Translations under genes and position numbers: made by a program
Source of the DNA: Phycisphaerae bacterium
GTDB lineage: Bacteria; Planctomycetota; Phycisphaerae; Phycisphaerales; Phycisphaeraceae
NCBI GenBank assembly: GCA_030432595.1
Contig: JAUIGU010000006.1
Span: 1-64,000 of the forward strand
Direction of reading: 5' to 3'
Length of the DNA stretch: 64,000 nucleotides
Notes under the pieces: model-generated
Told to the model about the DNA's origin: nothing
Databases searched by the model: none
What the model saw: only the letters and a program-made list of their open reading frames with translations
In this document: positions 2,054-11,311 of the stretch, piece after piece
Position numbering within the stretch: position 1 is the stretch's first letter
How the letters are laid out: each line of letters begins with the position of its first letter

Positions 2054-3010
2054 TCAGTACTGCCCGGCGTGCGGGTCGCCGTCAACGGTCCAGCCGTTGT
2101 CCTCATCCAGGCGGGCGTCGCCGAGGTACTCGTTGCTGCTGTAGAGGATAGCCAGCGTGCGGCTGGACAGGTCGGAACCGGCACCGGACACGGGCATCGC
2201 GGCGGTGTGGCCGTCGGCGAAAGTGATGTTGACCGCGTAGCCGTTGTGGCGTGCGTGCGGCTTGCCCAGGTCGGAACTGGCGGTGTAGTCCCAGACGAAG
2301 TTGGTGCCGCGCAGGTTGTCGAGCGCGGTGACGAAGTCCTGGGCAGGGATCTGGAACCCGCCGCCCCCGCCGCGCCCGCCGGTGGCGACCCGGCTGGTGA
2401 AGTTGGTCCCGGTTGTCGTCGAACGCGCCGCGTCCATCAGGTAGAAGGTTTCACTGGGCTGGGTGAGGACGCTCAGCGTCGGCGTGGGCGTGCGGTCCGA
2501 GCCGCCGTTGGGCTGGAACTGGGCGTCATCGAACCCGGTCTGCCGCTGGATCGAGCCGAGGTTGCTCGTGTTCATGCCGTAGTGGGAGTAGTACCAGTTG
2601 ATGTCGTCGAGCCAGTCGTCCGAGCCGATCTCGCCCTCGGTGTCGTCCGGCGACCAAGGGTCGAAGCCGACCTCTTCCATCTTCGGGCAGCGGTAGATGT
2701 CGCCCTTGCCGAGATAGCCTTCCTTGATCAGCCGGCCGTTCCAGAATGTGTTGGTGTTCCACGTTTCGCGGTAGGGGACGAAGTACTCCTGGTTGTCCAC
2801 GCAGTAGGTGGTGACGGCGATGCCGACCTGCCGGAGGTTGCTCATGCAAGCGGCGTCGCGAGCGGTGTTACGTGCCGCGCCCAAGGCCGGGAGCAAAATC
2901 CCGATCAGCAGGGCGATGATGGAGATGACCACGAGCAGCTCGATGAGCGTGAAGCCGGCTTCCGGGCGGTCCGGACGGTTGGGGCGGGACGCGGGTCGGT
3001 TCATGGGCAT
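2054..3010 (-). CDS. Prepilin-type N-terminal methylation protein (pseudopilin-like), paralogue
   Basis: A 318-residue protein with prepilin leader G19-F20-T-L-I-E24 followed by a 20-residue hydrophobic helix, so cleavage before Phe20 is expected. The helix and the [13 protein letters not shown] segment closely match the neighbouring paralogue at 1035-1979, and the C-terminal part carries FADGH, the DGH hallmark of this planctomycete family. I chose the ATG at 3010 (MPMNRP) because GGAG lies 5 to 8 bases upstream; a longer frame to 3097 adds basic residues without a ribosome site. The two paralogues are 74 bases apart on the same strand and probably form one transcript, with the secreted protein gene at 1-913 further downstream. 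Confidence 0.85.
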
Positions 3011-3688
3011 GGTTCTCCGGTCGGTCAATTCCGTTTTCGACGGCCTGATTCCAGCGGTCCGGGGCCGGTTTCGGTGGCCCCTTGAAGGTCGGGCCACTGC
3101 ATCACGTCAAACCGCTTAAACTGCCACCGTTTCAGGATTCCACGAAGTTTATGGGCTTTTCCGTAGGTTTCCGGGGGTCCGGGGGGCTTCCAACCCCTGG
3201 CGCGAGACGTGATCCGATCGAAACGATGGGCGACAACGTGAGGGACGATACCCTCGTGGTGCCTGCGTCGAGACGGATACACGGTTTCGAGACGCCGGAA
3301 GCGTGGCAACGTTGCCAACGGGGTTTCCCGCAGACGTGGCCATCATTTCCGGCTGCTCATACCAACAACTCCGACATCCGGTGAATACGCAGGCTCACCC
3401 AGTATAAGCGAATGATTTCACACTTGAAAGCAGGACTTGCATAATTTTTCGGAATCGATCGCCATTCGCGTGGTACGAACTGCCGTTGGGGCGTGCAGCG
3501 AGTCCGACAGGCGTTGAAAACACAGGCAAGAACCGGCGGGATCTAGTTCGAAGTGGGTTTCATTTTGTCCGGGTCGGGTCGCGTGGCCCCGGACGCTGGC
3601 GTACCCTGTGGCCTGCCCGCGGCCCGCGACCCTTACGCAACCCCGCCGCCACCGCCTCACCACCCTCTCCACCCCTGAGACTCGCGGC
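3011..3688. other. Divergent intergenic region, 678 bases
   Basis: Non-coding space between the minus-strand prepilin gene and the plus-strand ExbB operon, so it must hold the promoters of both. I see no convincing gene; the short frames here have no ribosome site and no family features. The one clear element is the palindrome at 3304-3317. The stretch 3400-3470 is more AT-rich than its surroundings and may contain the ExbB-operon promoter, but I could not pick a clean -35/-10 pair. Confidence 0.6.
3304..3317. promoter_or_regulatory. Perfect 14-base palindrome resembling a LacI-family operator
   Basis: TGGCAACGTTGCCA reads the same on both strands and has the CG centre and TG..CA ends typical of operators bound by LacI/GalR-family repressors. 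It lies about 300 bases before the prepilin gene (start 3010) and about 370 before the exbB-like gene (start 3689). No LacI-family gene is in the window. The resemblance is visual only. Confidence 0.4.
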
Positions 3689-4477
3689 ATGCTGCACGCC
3701 TTGTCGGTTTGGTTCGGTTCTGGTTATGTCCCCGGGGGCCTTGCCGCCGCGCCGGCGGTTTCCGCCCCACCCGCCGGCGCTCTGGGGATTCCCGGGGTTC
3801 TGGGGCAGGCGGACACCGCGGGTGCCGACGGCGTGATCGATCCGGCCGGGCTGGGCTACCGACTCGCCGAACTGTTCATGTTCTCGCCGATCATCAACGG
3901 CATCATCGCGGCGCTGTCGGTGCTGGCGTTGGGCCTGTTCCTCTGGCTGCTGCTGACCATCAACGCCCGGGCGGTTGCGCCGCGCGACTTCATCGACGAG
4001 ATCACCCGCCTGGTCGTGCGCGGCGACCTCGAAAAAGCCGCGGACCTCTGCCGGCGGGCACGCGGCGTGTTCATCGCGCCCATCGTGCAGCGCTGCGTCG
4101 AGAACGCGGGCCAGGGCCACTCCGTCGTGCTCGAGATGGTCGGCAGCGAGGGCCGACGCGCCGCCGACGTCGTGTGGAACCGCGTGAGCTACCTCGCGGA
4201 CATCTCCAACGTCGCGCCGATGTTGGGCTTGCTCGGAACCGTCATCGGCATGATCACCGCGTTCTTCGGCCTGGAACGCGAGACCGGGTCGATCAACGCG
4301 ACGGTGTTGTCGCGCGGCGTCGGGCAGGCGATGACCACCACCATGTTCGGCCTGGGCGTGGCGATCATGGCGCTGGTCATGTACTCGATCATCAAAAGCC
4401 GGGCGACGCGCACCCTCGCCGAAGCGGAACGGGCGGTGAACACCATCGCGGACCACCTGCAACGGAATGACGAATGA
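3689..4477 (+). CDS. exbB: MotA/TolQ/ExbB proton-channel family protein
   Basis: A 262-residue inner-membrane protein with the ExbB layout: membrane helices at about 70-91, 171-195 and 212-235, and a cytoplasmic loop between the first two. The second and third helices carry the family signature (SNVAPMLGLLGTVIGMI and a GVGQAMTTTMFGLGVAI segment). ExbB pentamers surround ExbD and conduct protons to power an energy-transducing partner such as TonB. The start at 3689 is the first Met consistent with the family N-terminus; an upstream Met at 3608 would add a Pro/Arg-rich stretch without family features. It is the first gene of an operon with exbD, a TPR protein and a VWA protein. Its last residues and stop codon lie inside the left arm of an inverted repeat. 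Confidence 0.9.
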   Translation: MLHALSVWFGSGYVPGGLAAAPAVSAPPAGALGIPGVLGQADTAGADGVIDPAGLGYRLAELFMFSPIINGIIAALSVLALGLFLWLLLTINARAVAPRDFIDEITRLVVRGDLEKAADLCRRARGVFIAPIVQRCVENAGQGHSVVLEMVGSEGRRAADVVWNRVSYLADISNVAPMLGLLGTVIGMITAFFGLERETGSINATVLSRGVGQAMTTTMFGLGVAIMALVMYSIIKSRATRTLAEAERAVNTIADHLQRNDE

Positions 4478-4586
4478 GGAATGCCGATTTCCGATGGGTT
4501 TTCCGATGCATTCGGGGCGGCCCAGGGCTGACCGGCAGCATCGAGTGCTTACTCCCTCGGCATTCGGCATTCTTCATTCGGCAATC
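4466..4586. repeat. Imperfect inverted repeat spanning the exbB stop codon
   Basis: Arms at 4466-4492 and 4560-4586 match in 22 of 27 positions when one is reverse-complemented; both are built from GAATGA/GAATGCC-type units. The left arm encodes the last ExbB residues (RNDE) and its TGA stop. This sort of near-repetitive hairpin is common between planctomycete genes. Here it separates exbB from exbD and could form an RNA hairpin affecting their relative expression. Confidence 0.7.
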
Positions 4587-4592
4587 ACACCC

Positions 4593-5021
4593 ATGAGTTT
4601 TGTCGCGGAATCCCGAGAACGCACACGCCCCGTCCTGCCTTTGGCGGGGATGGTGGACGTGCTGTTTCTGCTGCTCATCTTCTTCATGACCGCGTCGGCG
4701 TTCCGCGAGTCGGAGCTGGAGTTGCCGGTGTCGCTGACGCCGGGCGAGTCGGCGACGTCGCCGGTGGACGCGGCGTCGCAGGTGGTCGTGACCGTCACGA
4801 GCGACAACCGCGTGTTCTTCGGGGAACGTGAAACCGATCTGGACGAACTGCGTGGACTGATCGAAGAAGTGCTGGCCGTGTCGCCGCGCGAGGTGTTGGT
4901 GGTGCGGGCGGACGTGGACAGCCGGACGGGCGTGGTGGGCAAGGTGTTCGACCTGGCGGAACTCGCGGGCGTGACGGACACCCGGTTCGCGATGATCCGC
5001 GCCGCGGAGGGCGCGGAGTGA
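4593..5021 (+). CDS. exbD: ExbD/TolR family biopolymer transport protein
   Basis: A 142-residue protein with one N-terminal membrane helix (about 20-37) followed by a periplasmic domain of about 100 residues. The helix holds the proton-carrying aspartate, D22, in the context GMVDVLFLLLIFFM, which matches the ExbD/TolR consensus. The ATG at 4593 puts the helix at the usual distance from the N-terminus; the longer frame from 4467 begins inside the intergenic repeat and is unlikely. The stop codon overlaps the GTG start of the next gene by four bases (GTGA), implying translational coupling. Together with the upstream ExbB it should form a proton-motive-force-driven motor. Confidence 0.92.
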   Translation: MSFVAESRERTRPVLPLAGMVDVLFLLLIFFMTASAFRESELELPVSLTPGESATSPVDAASQVVVTVTSDNRVFFGERETDLDELRGLIEEVLAVSPREVLVVRADVDSRTGVVGKVFDLAELAGVTDTRFAMIRAAEGAE

Positions 5022-7663
5022 AGAGGCGAAAGTTGAAAGTCGAAAGTCGAAAGTCGGAAATCAGATGGTCGAAGCGTCGGGCTTTCGCGATGCTGCTGGC
5101 GCTTTTGACTTTTGACTTTCTACTTTCGACCGCGGCAGCCGCGCAGTCCGACGCCGCCCACCAACAATTCCTGTTCGCCTACAAGCTCTTGCAGCGCGGC
5201 GACGACAACGAGGCGGCCGTCGAGTTCGACGCGTACCTTCGGCAATACCCCGAAGCGCCCAAGCGGGGCGACGGCCTGTACTACCGGGCGCTTTTGCACC
5301 GCCGGGCCGGCGAGGCGGAGCGCGTGGTGACGCTGCTGGAGGACGCGCGCCGCCCGGCGCCGCAGCTCGTGCCGGCCTACGCGGTGGACCTGCTGCTGGG
5401 CCAGTCGCTCAGCGACCTGAAGCGCTGGCCCGAGGCGACGTCGGTGTTGGAACGGATCGACGCGGGCACGCTGGCCGAGCGGGGGCAAGCGGGCGTGGCG
5501 GTGTCGGTGCGTTACTTGCGCGGGCTGGCGTACAAGGGCGCGGACCAGCTCGGCAAGGCGGCGGAGGAACTCAAGGCGGCGTCCGAACTGCCCGGCGCCG
5601 AGGCCGACGCGATGCGCGGCCGGGCGCTGCTGGACCTCGCGCGTGTGCATGTGCAGCGTGGCGACGCGGCGGCGGCGCTGGCGGCGCTGGACAAAACGCT
5701 GGCGCTGAATCAGGCGGAGACCGCGCCCGAGGCGGCGCGGTTCGCCGGCGACGTCGCGTACGAGGCCGAGCGCTTCGCCGACGCCGTGACCTACTACGAC
5801 CGCGTGATCACCGGGCACCCCGGCAGCGCCCACTACGGCGCGTCGGCGGTGGGCAAGCTGTGGGCGCTCTACGCCGCCGGCCGCGACGCCGCGGTCGTCG
5901 AGACGTACGAGGCGCTGGTCTCGACGCTGCCGCTGCAGGACCGCGTCGCCGCGGGCTACCTCGCCGGCTCGGCGAAACAACGCCAAAACGAACACGAGGC
6001 CGCGGTCGCGCTGCTCGAACCCCTGGCCCGCGGGCGCGGCGAACTCGACCTCGAAGCCCGGGTGATCTACCGACTCGCCGTGAGCCAGCACGCGCTGGGG
6101 CGCGACGAGCGCGTGCTCGAACTGGCCCGCCGGCTCAAAGACCTGTTCCCCGACTCGCCGCTCAACGTCGACGCCGGATTCCTCGCCGCCTCCAGCACCG
6201 CCCGGCTCAAGGGCGCGACCGCCGGCGCCGCCGAACTCACCCGCTACATCGAGCAGGGGCCCGAGCACCCGTATTACCTTTCCGCCCTAAAACAGCGCGC
6301 GGCGCTGTACGAGCAGAACGGGCAGCTCGACGCGGCGCTGAACGATTACGCGGTCTGGCGATCCGAAGCGAGGAAGCCGGAACGCAACGGCGACCCCGTC
6401 GAACTCATGCGCGTCGATCTGCGTTTTGCCGACCTGGCCCTGGCCACGGACAAACGGGACGCGGCGCTGGCGGTACTCGACGTGCTGAGGCAGTCGTTGG
6501 CGAACATGGCGACGCAAGGCAACCCGCAGCCCGAACTCGAAGCCGAGACGCTGTACCGCCTGGGTACGGCCCACGCCGCCGCGAACCCCAGCGCCGCCCT
6601 CGACGCCTTCGAAGAACTCCAGGCCAAACACCCCCTCAGCGCCTTCGCCGGCGACGCGGCGCTCAAGCGCGGCGCCGTGCTGCGCCAGCTCGGCCGGGAC
6701 CGCGAAGCGCTCGAGGTCTGGATCGACGCCGTCGATAGCGAAAGCATGTCGCCGCCGCAGCGGGCGTTGGCGCTGCGGGCGATGGCGTCGATGTACCGGC
6801 AGGCTGGCCGCGACAACGACGCCGCGGTCACCCTGCTGCGCGCTTCCCGCGAGGTCGGGCCCGAGGGGTTGAGCAATGAGGAGCTGCTGTGGATGACCCG
6901 GCAGGCGCTGCGCGACCAGCGGCGGTCCGACGACCCGGGCGTCACCACCGAAGCGCTGGGCGCGGCGAAGTCGCTGCTGGGCGTGCTGGACACGGAAGGC
7001 CGCGGGTTGACCGGCCCGCAGCAGGCCGAGCGCGCTTACCTCGGCGGGCGCGTCGCGCTGGCGGAGAGCGACCTCGACGCGGCGCGGCAGGCGTTCCAGG
7101 GCGTGATTGCGCTGGGCCAGGGCTTCGACCTGGACGCGCAGCTGGGGCTGGCGGAGATCGCCGAGGCCGACGGCGATTACGACGCGGCGTCGGCCGAGTA
7201 CATCGCCCTGTCCCGCGCGCCAGAGACGACGGTCGCCGCCGAGGCGATGCTGCGCTACGGGTTGGTGCAGCGGCAACGCGCAGCGTCGCTGTCGCGGCAG
7301 GGCAACGACCGCGCGGCCGACGAAGCCCTCGCCGAAGCGAAGCGCTCGATCAAGAAGATGACGCTGCTGTACCTGGACTCGCCGGAGGTGCAGCCCACGC
7401 CGCAGCGCGGCCTGGCCGAACTCGCCGAAATTGCGGATGAACTCGACCAGCCCGACGACGCGCTGCGCGAGTACGACGAGCTCGTGAAGCACTTTTCGGA
7501 CACGCCTTGGGGCCGGTACGCGTCGGCCCGGATCGCCGACCGGCGCGACCGCCGGCCTGATGATGCGCTGGCGATGCTCGCGTCGCTGGACGGCGCGTCG
7601 GTGGACCCGGCGTTGCGGCGGCGCGTCGAACGCTTCCGCGAAGAGTTGGAGGCCCGGCGATGA
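5018..7663 (+). CDS. Large secreted tetratricopeptide-repeat protein
   Basis: An 881-residue protein starting with GTG at 5018, overlapping the exbD stop. After an unusually basic start of about 21 residues comes a hydrophobic segment and AAAAQ, a likely signal-peptidase site near residue 42; this whole leader is encoded by an inverted repeat (5027-5130). The rest is almost all helical TPR-like units of about 34 residues (for example FLFAYKLLQRGDDNEAAVEF, then repeats such as YYDRVITGHPGS) and ends with a segment like the TPR domains of YbgF/CpoB and BamD. It is probably periplasmic and acts as a scaffold for the ExbB-ExbD-driven machine. Its stop overlaps the next start (ATGA). Confidence 0.85.
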   Translation: MKRRKLKVESRKSEIRWSKRRAFAMLLALLTFDFLLSTAAAAQSDAAHQQFLFAYKLLQRGDDNEAAVEFDAYLRQYPEAPKRGDGLYYRALLHRRAGEAERVVTLLEDARRPAPQLVPAYAVDLLLGQSLSDLKRWPEATSVLERIDAGTLAERGQAGVAVSVRYLRGLAYKGADQLGKAAEELKAASELPGAEADAMRGRALLDLARVHVQRGDAAAALAALDKTLALNQAETAPEAARFAGDVAYEAERFADAVTYYDRVITGHPGSAHYGASAVGKLWALYAAGRDAAVVETYEALVSTLPLQDRVAAGYLAGSAKQRQNEHEAAVALLEPLARGRGELDLEARVIYRLAVSQHALGRDERVLELARRLKDLFPDSPLNVDAGFLAASSTARLKGATAGAAELTRYIEQGPEHPYYLSALKQRAALYEQNGQLDAALNDYAVWRSEARKPERNGDPVELMRVDLRFADLALATDKRDAALAVLDVLRQSLANMATQGNPQPELEAETLYRLGTAHAAANPSAALDAFEELQAKHPLSAFAGDAALKRGAVLRQLGRDREALEVWIDAVDSESMSPPQRALALRAMASMYRQAGRDNDAAVTLLRASREVGPEGLSNEELLWMTRQALRDQRRSDDPGVTTEALGAAKSLLGVLDTEGRGLTGPQQAERAYLGGRVALAESDLDAARQAFQGVIALGQGFDLDAQLGLAEIAEADGDYDAASAEYIALSRAPETTVAAEAMLRYGLVQRQRAASLSRQGNDRAADEALAEAKRSIKKMTLLYLDSPEVQPTPQRGLAELAEIADELDQPDDALREYDELVKHFSDTPWGRYASARIADRRDRRPDDALAMLASLDGASVDPALRRRVERFREELEARR
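5027..5130. repeat. Inverted repeat of GAAAGTC units forming a signal-peptide coding region
   Basis: The left arm (about 5027-5060) is built of repeated GAAAGTC units and the right arm (about 5102-5130) of their complement (GACTTT). The two could fold into a hairpin. In other planctomycetes such arrays are found between genes. Here both arms are translated: the left gives the basic KLKVESRKSE stretch, the right gives LLTFDFLLST, the hydrophobic core of the signal peptide of the TPR protein. Confidence 0.75.
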
Positions 7664-9648
7664 GCGACGCCGACCGCCCCGCGCCCGACCCACCGAAGCG
7701 CAGCGACGACGCGGCCCGGCCGTTCGCGCAGCCGCTGGGCAGCTTCCGCGCGCCGGCAGACGGCGATGCGGCGAGGGCCCCGGCCCGCGCTCGAACCGAC
7801 CCGCCGCGCGGCAACGGCGAACAGGAACGCGAGAAGGACGCCTTCTACCGCCCCAGCCGCCTCGCCACCGCGTCCACCGCCCTGCTCTGGCTCGCCCTGT
7901 TCGTCAGCGTCGGGCTGCACACCGGCCTGGTCGTCGCCGCCGCCGACCGCACGTTCGGGTTCGTCAACCTCGACGACGTGGACCAACCACCGCGTGTGAT
8001 CCGGCTCAAACGGGCCGCGTTCGACACCGTCCTGCCCGCCGACGCGCGCGTCGGCCCGGGTGCCGCGCCGGCCGAGCCCGACACGCCCGCCGTGTTCGAC
8101 GACCTGCTCGCGAATCAACCCGCCGAGGCCCTCGACGACCGCCCGGACCTGGGCCTGCGCCCGCTCGACGACGCGCGTCCCGCCGAGGCGGTTACCGACC
8201 TGGCCGTCGCCCTGCCCGCCTTCGAGATCGACCCGGCGCTGCTCGAAACGCTCGACACCACCGCCCCCGCGGAAGCCGAAGTCGTAACCGGCACCGGCCT
8301 CGCCGGCCGCGCGGACGCGCCGGCCACCGACCCCGACCTGACCGCCGCCCTGCTGGCCACGTCCGTCGGCTCGTCCGCCCGTTCCGCCGCGCGGCCAGGC
8401 GGCGCAGCCGGCGCCGGTGGCGCTCCGGGCATCGGGTCCGGCGGCGTCACGCTGCCCGGCACCACCGCGCGCCACCTCGACCAACGCCCCGCCGAACCTC
8501 CGCCGACCACCACGCCCCGCGGCCCCGCCGACGTCCGCCCCGCCGTCGCCCCGCCGGCCGGCCCGGACATCGACTACGCCGCCCTCGCATTGGCCGGCAC
8601 CACCGAACTGATTTTTCCCGAGCACCTCGACGACGACTTCCGTTACGAGCTGTTCGTCCACCACGACCGCAACCGCCCCGCCGACCCCGCCTACTTCCGC
8701 GTCGAAATCACCCCGCGCGACTCGCTCCGCAAACTCAAGACCCTGCCCAAGGACCTCGTGTTCCTCATCGACACCAGCTCGTCCATCCCCCAGAGCTGGG
8801 TCGAGCAGATCGCGCTGGGCGTCGAGCAATCCCTGGCCGGCATGAACCCGCAGGACCGGTTCAACCTCGTGGTGTTCAACGACACCGTGCGCTTCCTCAG
8901 CGACCAGCCCGTGCAGGCGTCGGAGCAGAACCTCGCCGCCGCCCGCACGTTCCTGCGCGACGCGAAGTCCAAGGGCTACACCGACGTCAACGCGGCGCTG
9001 CGCCGGCTGCTGCGCCGCGACCAGCCGCCCGGCCGGGTCTACACGCTCGTGCTCATCTCCGACGGCAAGCCCACGGTCGGGGTCGTCGACGCCCGTCAAC
9101 TCATCAACCTCATCACCCGCGAGAACGACCGCGTCGCCGGGATCTACTGCGTCGGCGCCGCGCCGCAGAAGGACCTGGACCCGCGCCTGCTCGACTTCCT
9201 CAGCTACCGCAACAACGGCTTCTCGGTCTTCGCCTACGAGCGCGATCAGGTCGCCGAGACCATCCGCAACCTCGCGTCCCAACTGCGCTACCCACTGATC
9301 ACCGACGTGACGGTGCGCGTCGCCGGCGACCACGTCCGCCAGGTCCAGCCGCAGCGTCTGCCGACCATCCACCAGGGCCAGGGCTTCTCGGTGTACGGCC
9401 GATACACCGAAGAGCGCCCGCTCACCGTGCAGATCACCGGCAAAGCCGAGAACGGCCGGCCCGTGGACTTCACCTTCACCCGCCGCCCCGCCGACGCGCC
9501 CCAGGCCGGCCCCGACGTCGCGAGCCAGTGGGCGTTCTGGGCGCTGCACGAGTTGTACGGCGAGGTCCTGGACCGTGGGGAAAACCCGACCTTGCTCCGC
9601 GAAATCGCAAAGCTGCGAGACCGTTACGGGTTACAAACTCTGTATTGA
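7660..9648 (+). CDS. TonB-like membrane-anchored VWA domain protein
   Basis: A 662-residue protein. A cytoplasmic Pro/Arg-rich tail precedes one membrane helix (about 69-94) containing SVGLHTGLVVAA; S83 and H87 reproduce the Ser-x3-His motif of TonB and TolA helices, where it couples to ExbB-ExbD. A long Pro/Ala-rich periplasmic linker (about 105-310) follows. Then comes a von Willebrand A domain with an intact metal site: D371-T-S373-S-S375, T441 and D468-G. The C-terminal part resembles the region after the VWA domain of inter-alpha-trypsin-inhibitor heavy chains and YfbK and ends in RYGLQTLY, at the motif where relatives continue. It has no TonB C-terminal domain. Last gene of the operon; ATGA overlap with the TPR gene. 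Confidence 0.88.
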   Translation: MSDADRPAPDPPKRSDDAARPFAQPLGSFRAPADGDAARAPARARTDPPRGNGEQEREKDAFYRPSRLATASTALLWLALFVSVGLHTGLVVAAADRTFGFVNLDDVDQPPRVIRLKRAAFDTVLPADARVGPGAAPAEPDTPAVFDDLLANQPAEALDDRPDLGLRPLDDARPAEAVTDLAVALPAFEIDPALLETLDTTAPAEAEVVTGTGLAGRADAPATDPDLTAALLATSVGSSARSAARPGGAAGAGGAPGIGSGGVTLPGTTARHLDQRPAEPPPTTTPRGPADVRPAVAPPAGPDIDYAALALAGTTELIFPEHLDDDFRYELFVHHDRNRPADPAYFRVEITPRDSLRKLKTLPKDLVFLIDTSSSIPQSWVEQIALGVEQSLAGMNPQDRFNLVVFNDTVRFLSDQPVQASEQNLAAARTFLRDAKSKGYTDVNAALRRLLRRDQPPGRVYTLVLISDGKPTVGVVDARQLINLITRENDRVAGIYCVGAAPQKDLDPRLLDFLSYRNNGFSVFAYERDQVAETIRNLASQLRYPLITDVTVRVAGDHVRQVQPQRLPTIHQGQGFSVYGRYTEERPLTVQITGKAENGRPVDFTFTRRPADAPQAGPDVASQWAFWALHELYGEVLDRGENPTLLREIAKLRDRYGLQTLY

Positions 9649-10369: not shown

Positions 10370-11311
10370 ATGACCGGCTGGCTGTTCATCGGCATCGCCC
10401 TGGGGTTGCTGCTGGCGATCCCCGTCTCCCGCGCGTGGGCGCGCCGGGTCGAGCGCCGCGTCACCGCCTCCGAACGCCGGGCCCAACACGCCGAACGCCT
10501 CGCCGAGCTGGGCACCATGACCGGCGGCCTCGCCCACGAGATCAAGAACCCGCTCTCCACCGTCGGGCTCAACGTCCAACTCCTCCAGGAAGACGTCGCC
10601 GACGCCCAAAAACTCACCGCGCAACTCGCTCAGGACTCTGCCGATAGTCAGCCGCAGGCCAACGGCCCGCGCGCCCAGGCCGACCTCCAGGAAAACCTCG
10701 GACGCGTCGCCCGCCGACTCGACGGCCTGCACCGCGAGACCCAGCGCCTCCGCGACATCCTCGAAGACTTCCTCCGCTTCGCCGGGCGGATGAAGCTCGA
10801 CCTCCAACCCACCGATGTGCACGCGCTGCTGGAAGAACTCACGGACTTCTTTGCCCCCCAGGCCGAGGACGCGGGCGTCCGTCTGCGACTCGACCTCCAG
10901 GCGCAACAACACCACGCCCCCGCCGACGCCGCGCTGCTCAAGCAGGCCGTGCTCAACCTCATGCTCAACGCCGTCCAGGCCATGCAGCAGGCCAAACAAG
11001 CCACCAACCCTGTCGCCCACGGCGGCTGCGACGAACTGCACCTGCGCACGTCCAACGCCAACGACGCGCCCGGCGTGATCGTCCACGTCACCGACACCGG
11101 CCCGGGCATCCCCGACGAAGTCCGGCCGCGCATCTTCGAGCCCTACTTCTCCAACAAACGCGGCGGCACCGGCCTTGGCCTGCCCACCACGAAACGCATC
11201 GTCGACGAGCACCACGGCCGACTCACCGTCCACTCCGAAACGGGCCAGGGCACGGCGTTTTCGATCTGGCTGCCGACGCAATCCGGTGAGACTGCGCGTT
11301 CGACGCCATAA
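10370..11311 (+). CDS. Membrane-anchored sensor histidine kinase
   Basis: A 313-residue histidine kinase. A single N-terminal membrane helix (3-20) anchors it; no separate sensor domain is present between helix and kinase core. The dimerisation domain has the H-box LAHEIKNPLSTV with the phosphorylated H57, as in NtrB-like kinases. The ATP-binding domain has an N-box (NLMLNAVQAM), G1 (DTGPGIPDE) and G2 (GGTGLGLPTTKRIVDEH). The protein should autophosphorylate and hand phosphate to a response regulator, but none is adjacent, so the partner is unknown. It is an orphan kinase between the cold-shock gene and a repeat element. Confidence 0.9.
   Translation: MTGWLFIGIALGLLLAIPVSRAWARRVERRVTASERRAQHAERLAELGTMTGGLAHEIKNPLSTVGLNVQLLQEDVADAQKLTAQLAQDSADSQPQANGPRAQADLQENLGRVARRLDGLHRETQRLRDILEDFLRFAGRMKLDLQPTDVHALLEELTDFFAPQAEDAGVRLRLDLQAQQHHAPADAALLKQAVLNLMLNAVQAMQQAKQATNPVAHGGCDELHLRTSNANDAPGVIVHVTDTGPGIPDEVRPRIFEPYFSNKRGGTGLGLPTTKRIVDEHHGRLTVHSETGQGTAFSIWLPTQSGETARSTP

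Follow-up and report, generated by a model that had tools for sequence, protein, structure and literature searches.

The window (the whole 64-kb stretch of DNA analysed here) contains four consecutive genes, which encode an ExbB/TolQ-like motor subunit, an ExbD/TolR-like motor subunit, a secreted TPR protein and a protein with a C-terminal VWA domain (Table 1). The earlier note on this DNA, made from the sequence alone, had proposed that these genes form an operon. All four genes lie on the plus strand with Pfam support, and the short overlaps that the note described are present, with GTGA at the exbD/TPR junction and ATGA at the TPR/VWA junction. The exbB and exbD genes are separated by a 115-nt spacer, the sequence of which has no second copy elsewhere in the 64-kb window. 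An in-frame GTG at position 3608, upstream of the exbB ATG, is an alternative possible start. The N-terminus of the TPR protein, judged by eye, is signal-peptide-like. Two prepilin-like genes lie just upstream of the unit and are divergent from it, and a histidine-kinase gene lies downstream.

Table 1. Positions of the four-gene unit, of two motifs in its VWA protein and of flanking genes in the window.
Feature	Positions	Strand	Details
Prepilin-like gene	1035–1979	−	N_methyl; one of the two prepilin-like genes also with DUF1559
Prepilin-like gene	2054–3097	−	N_methyl
exbB/tolQ-like motor subunit	3689–4477	+	262 aa from ATG 3689; PF01618, E 1.4e-22
exbD/tolR-like motor subunit	4593–5021	+	PF02472, E 8.2e-21; Asp22; MSF/MGF start conserved
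Secreted TPR protein, gene 3 of the unit	5018–7663	+	881 aa; TPR families; YbgF/CpoB-like model
TonB-like VWA transducer	7660–9648	+	662 aa; VWA PF13768, E 4.9e-13
S83-x3-H87, predicted motor-coupling motif in the N-terminal helix of the VWA protein	7906–7920	+	
VWA metal site (MIDAS), D371-x-S373-x-S375, T441, D468	8770–9063	+	
Histidine-kinase gene	10370–11311	+	HisKA and HATPase_c

The two pore threonines (T148 and T181 in E. coli ExbB, T145 and T178 in TolQ) have equivalents that do not vary in 26 aligned sequences. ExbD D22, the essential membrane aspartate to which the earlier reading had drawn attention, is invariant in 12 sequences. By contrast, none of the 14 near-family ExbB proteins has the conserved TM3 proline of ExbB/TolQ (presumably E. 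coli ExbB P190), which 7 of 9 distant loci and the second locus of this genome retain. This proline has been proposed to take part in passing the signal of the transducer helix on to the pore (PMC12905483). Since the threonines and D22 are invariant and the TM3 proline is lost, the motor of the window's near family looks active from its sequence, but its gating may differ.

The VWA protein has a single N-terminal helix, predicted at residues 67–95, and the SVGLH stretch reported for it lies within this helix (S83 to H87). The claimed likeness to the TonB helix holds in the alignment, for which E. coli TonB and TolA served as yardsticks: S83 and H87 are in register with TonB S16 and H20. This likeness is partial with respect to the TonB SHLS motif, the Ser and His of which are kept, whereas the positions of the Leu and the last Ser are occupied by A94 and T98. 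Both of the latter positions vary across the transducer group, and the TonB Leu makes no contact with ExbB according to a review of the Ton and Tol systems (PMC12905483). Alignment on the His placed a Ser (in a few cases a Thr) at −4 and the His at 0 in 43 of 43 listed sequences, a list that was built with the motif pattern, so that the unbiased count is the comparison of transducers with paralogues described below. In addition, conserved R118 and D122 are located 31 and 35 residues past H87, as is the TonB D-box region; no strand is predicted there, and the pLDDT is below 50.

In the structure model of the VWA protein (mean pLDDT 62, high over most of the VWA part), the helix is followed by disorder at about residues 98–306 and by a folded C-terminal part at about residues 320–660. 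The Pro/Ala-rich linker that had been noticed in the sequence corresponds to residues 124–320, which contain 22% Ala and 14% Pro and are mostly predicted to be disordered. The VWA domain stands in place of the TonB C-terminal domain, as the earlier note had stated: the protein has no PF03544 match, and a VWA fold is present at its C-terminus. The description of the end as ITIH-like agrees with a sequence match to ITIH4 (E 1e-31) and with a fold match to ITIH heavy chain 1 (6fpy; Z 25.4, rmsd 5.1 over 321 residues). The five residues of the metal site, which had been read as intact, are all present and are invariant in 24 transducers, 34 paralogues and 19 Kiritimatiellota-side proteins (one T to S). 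The site is therefore under constraint; proteins beyond the motor unit are constrained in the same way, and this alone does not show that a ligand is gripped.

A protein search of 41 relatives revealed 13 more full-length VWA orthologues with 34–45% identity to the window protein, and the unit was absent from many of these relatives. The order exbB-exbD-TPR-VWA on one strand was found in 11 of the 11 near loci with sufficient contig, in addition to the window, and in the remaining 2 near orthologues only the TPR and VWA genes were seen before the contig end. A contig scan with one query sequence gave one relative only. Screening of 294 genomes of the phylum with a profile yielded 2 more near-family loci and 7 from other families, all with identical order, and 2 further loci with the exbB-exbD-TPR-VWA arrangement were found on the Kiritimatiellota side, which brings the complete loci to 23 (window included) across two phyla. 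The assignment of the third gene as a TPR gene came from sequence matches for the near loci, L103 and L104, and from Pfam for L100–L103, L105 and L106. A genome search for the four-gene order was the check named in advance by the earlier note, and the order recurred in every locus with enough contig; homologues devoid of the exbB/exbD neighbourhood were looked for as counter-evidence, and the 23 complete loci argue for the link. None of the genes flanking the four is conserved throughout the near set, so the unit has no fifth member there; BioB-like genes and small exported proteins are found upstream in some relatives only.

No motor gene was recognised next to the majority of such VWA genes on the Kiritimatiellota side. 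At L142, L144, L149, L152 and L161, a VWA gene with a TonB-like helix directly follows rho and adjoins no recognised motor gene, the order being coaE-rho-VWA in L142 and L152. One candidate, L107, was removed from the linked set, as its VWA gene has no helix and lies on the strand opposite to the nearby exbB.

Collected with no motif selection, all 24 transducers (the window protein, one Kiritimatiellota protein and the proteins of 22 planctomycete loci in which the TPR gene, at least, is adjacent) have Ser/Thr-x3-His in a hydrophobic helix, so that the search for homologues without the Ser/His pair, the other kind of counter-evidence sought, did not overturn the link. In contrast, the motif helix is absent from all 34 related VIT-VWA paralogues that were not recovered beside motor genes, a status that is based on 1.5-kb flanks and on a profile search with the operon ExbB at E 1e-30, so that a more divergent motor gene nearby may be missed. 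On the Kiritimatiellota side, the His occupies the helix column in 18 of 19 proteins. A VIT domain is present in 5 of the 5 paralogues checked, and most of the 34 start with signal-peptide-like stretches, whereas Pfam recognises no VIT domain in the window VWA protein or in 4 distant transducers. The helix predicted to couple to the motor is thus found where the motor is; at the level of sequence, the paralogues serve as a natural control in which the VWA family occurs apart from this helix.

The genome assembly is 99% complete. The earlier observation that no TonB-dependent receptor gene is near extends to the whole genome, which has no PF00593 match. The TonB C-terminal domain PF03544 also has no match in the whole genome, an absence of TonB-type domains that holds at the Pfam threshold only, because the C-terminus of one CARDB-containing protein appears by eye to be divergent TonB-like and is not recognised by Pfam. 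This protein, which has a His in its N-terminal helix, is encoded after a lone ExbD gene (L059, G000:C27, 4017–5939, minus strand). Another locus (L055, G000:C13, 4641–13314, minus strand) encodes two VWA-like transmembrane proteins, a TPR protein, ExbB, two ExbD proteins and a large TPR protein. One of its VWA-type proteins has an SLLLH helix, and the first VWA-type protein was assigned by eye and is unrecognised by Pfam. A genome without Pfam-recognisable Ton receptors accordingly has two VWA-motor loci.

The earlier note had treated the idea of a VWA protein driven by such a motor as new, but the class had already been described. Williams-Jones et al. (2025, Mol Biol Evol; PMC12204202) reported, from predictions, vWA force transducers encoded beside TPR and TolQ/TolR-like genes in Planctomycetes and other phyla, and called their function unknown. 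These transducers have an N-terminal helix with Ser and His, a disordered periplasmic linker with a motor-box strand, and a YfbK-like VWA end; many, not all, carry the SHLS motif, and in an AF3 model of relatives the His of the helix sits where TonB and TolA dock on their motors (PMC12204202). Because the published class already comprises this synteny with TPR and motor genes, together with a model of the His contact, the window unit is a well-conserved new member of it. The unit shares the Ser-x3-His helix, the disordered linker, the C-terminal VWA fold, and the TPR and TolQ-like synteny with the class. It differs in two respects: (i) one ExbD is recognised per locus in 23 of 23 complete loci, compared with the main text of the paper, in which a pair of different tolR-like genes is frequent in PVC loci without being a requirement (PMC12204202); and (ii) the TM3 proline of ExbB is lost in the window's near family. 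The L055 locus is nearer to the two-tolR arrangement of that paper. Our literature search found no paper besides PMC12204202 that covers vWA transducers and no experiment on any member of the class. Beyond the main text of PMC12204202, the present analysis provides the four-gene form with a single ExbD in 23 loci of two phyla, the comparison with VIT-VWA paralogues, a metal site that does not vary, one lineage in which ExbB has lost the TM3 proline, and a second locus of the VWA-motor type in this genome.

Comparison of the window system with better-known systems revealed that (i) it shares with TonB-ExbB-ExbD a motor with the essential residues and a one-helix transducer with S-x3-H and a Pro-rich linker, but has a VWA domain for the TonB C-terminal domain, an added TPR gene and no receptor recognised in the genome; (ii) it shares with TolA-TolQ-TolR the motor type, the best model scores (TolQ and TolR) and a CpoB/YbgF-like TPR protein, but has a VWA domain for the TolA C-terminal domain and neither TolB nor Pal in the unit; and (iii) it shares with the VIT-VWA/ITIH heavy chain family the VWA domain, the beta/helical module that follows it and the intact metal site, but has a TonB-like helix and linker in place of the VIT domain and signal peptide.

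In our view, the unit probably encodes a proton-driven ExbB-ExbD motor with a dedicated VWA force transducer that docks as TonB and TolA do and acts on a partner via its VWA domain. The motor would be of the 5:2 ExbB-ExbD/TolQ-TolR kind. From homology to Ton and Tol, we infer that the single helix of the transducer docks on the exterior of the ExbB pentamer through its Ser-His pair, that proton flow moves the transducer, and that the working end is periplasmic. The disordered Ala/Pro-rich arm would then span the periplasm and carry at its tip the VWA domain, followed by a small beta/helical module like that of inter-alpha-trypsin inhibitors. A partner held by the VWA domain would be pulled or let go as protons flow, probably via the metal site and with the secreted TPR protein as a helper. 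The predicted coupling of the VWA protein to the motor is well supported by the helix conservation, the gene order in two phyla and the counts of 24 of 24 transducers against 0 of 34 paralogues; metal-dependent gripping or adhesion by the VWA domain, a scaffold role for the TPR protein and the cellular task, which may be attachment, motility, uptake or stabilisation of the envelope, are guesses. Points against this explanation are the lost Leu and second Ser of SHLS, the lost TM3 proline, the motor-box strand that is not predicted and the Kiritimatiellota-side VWA genes, most of which adjoin no recognised motor gene.

Motor coupling would be common to this explanation and to an envelope stabiliser of the Tol-Pal kind, with the VWA protein in the place of TolA, the TPR protein in that of CpoB, and a target that is peptidoglycan-bound or in the outer membrane. 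The best model scores of ExbB and ExbD are indeed those of TolQ and TolR (53.7 and 32.2 bits), but both are far under the cut-offs of these families; the TPR protein comes close to the YbgF/CpoB cut-off (88.2 of 90.1 bits), and OmpA/Pal-type domains are present in the genome, whereas the conserved four-gene unit includes neither a TolB nor a Pal gene. The absence of the unit from many relatives is also unlike an essential housekeeping system, and we consider a stabiliser of this kind unlikely.

VWA and I domains alter their shape upon ligand binding. The VWA protein might accordingly be a tension or ligand sensor, in which occupancy of the metal site would open the channel of the motor or send a signal along the helix, pulling not being the product, and the engagement of Ton and Tol transducers has been proposed to gate the proton channel (PMC12905483). 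However, Pfam recognises no signalling domain on the VWA protein, and the downstream histidine-kinase gene has counterparts near two relatives only, which makes such a sensor improbable. That the VWA gene is a mere neighbour of exbB-exbD with an ordinary membrane anchor is strongly disfavoured and was rejected on the conservation data: VWA domains are common, unrelated genes can be operon neighbours, and many Kiritimatiellota-side VWA genes lie apart from recognised motor genes, but the order is kept in 23 complete loci, the paralogues are devoid of the motif, and, a single exception apart, the His within the hydrophobic helix is invariant in both phyla.

The textbook examples of ExbBD-type motors working with a side-docked transducer are Ton and Tol. 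Under the preferred reading of a motor with a dedicated VWA force transducer, the window system may, tentatively, represent a third branch beside them: a receptor-independent motor that grips through the VWA metal site, that is, by a switchable metal-dependent clamp and not by TonB-type strand pairing, and that was built from a secreted VIT-VWA protein when a TonB-like helix replaced the signal peptide and the VIT domain. That a conserved unit retains motor and docking helix with a different working end shows the motor to be modular. The compact four-gene loci, here in a genome without recognisable TonB-dependent receptors, are suited to testing the task of the predicted vWA transducers.
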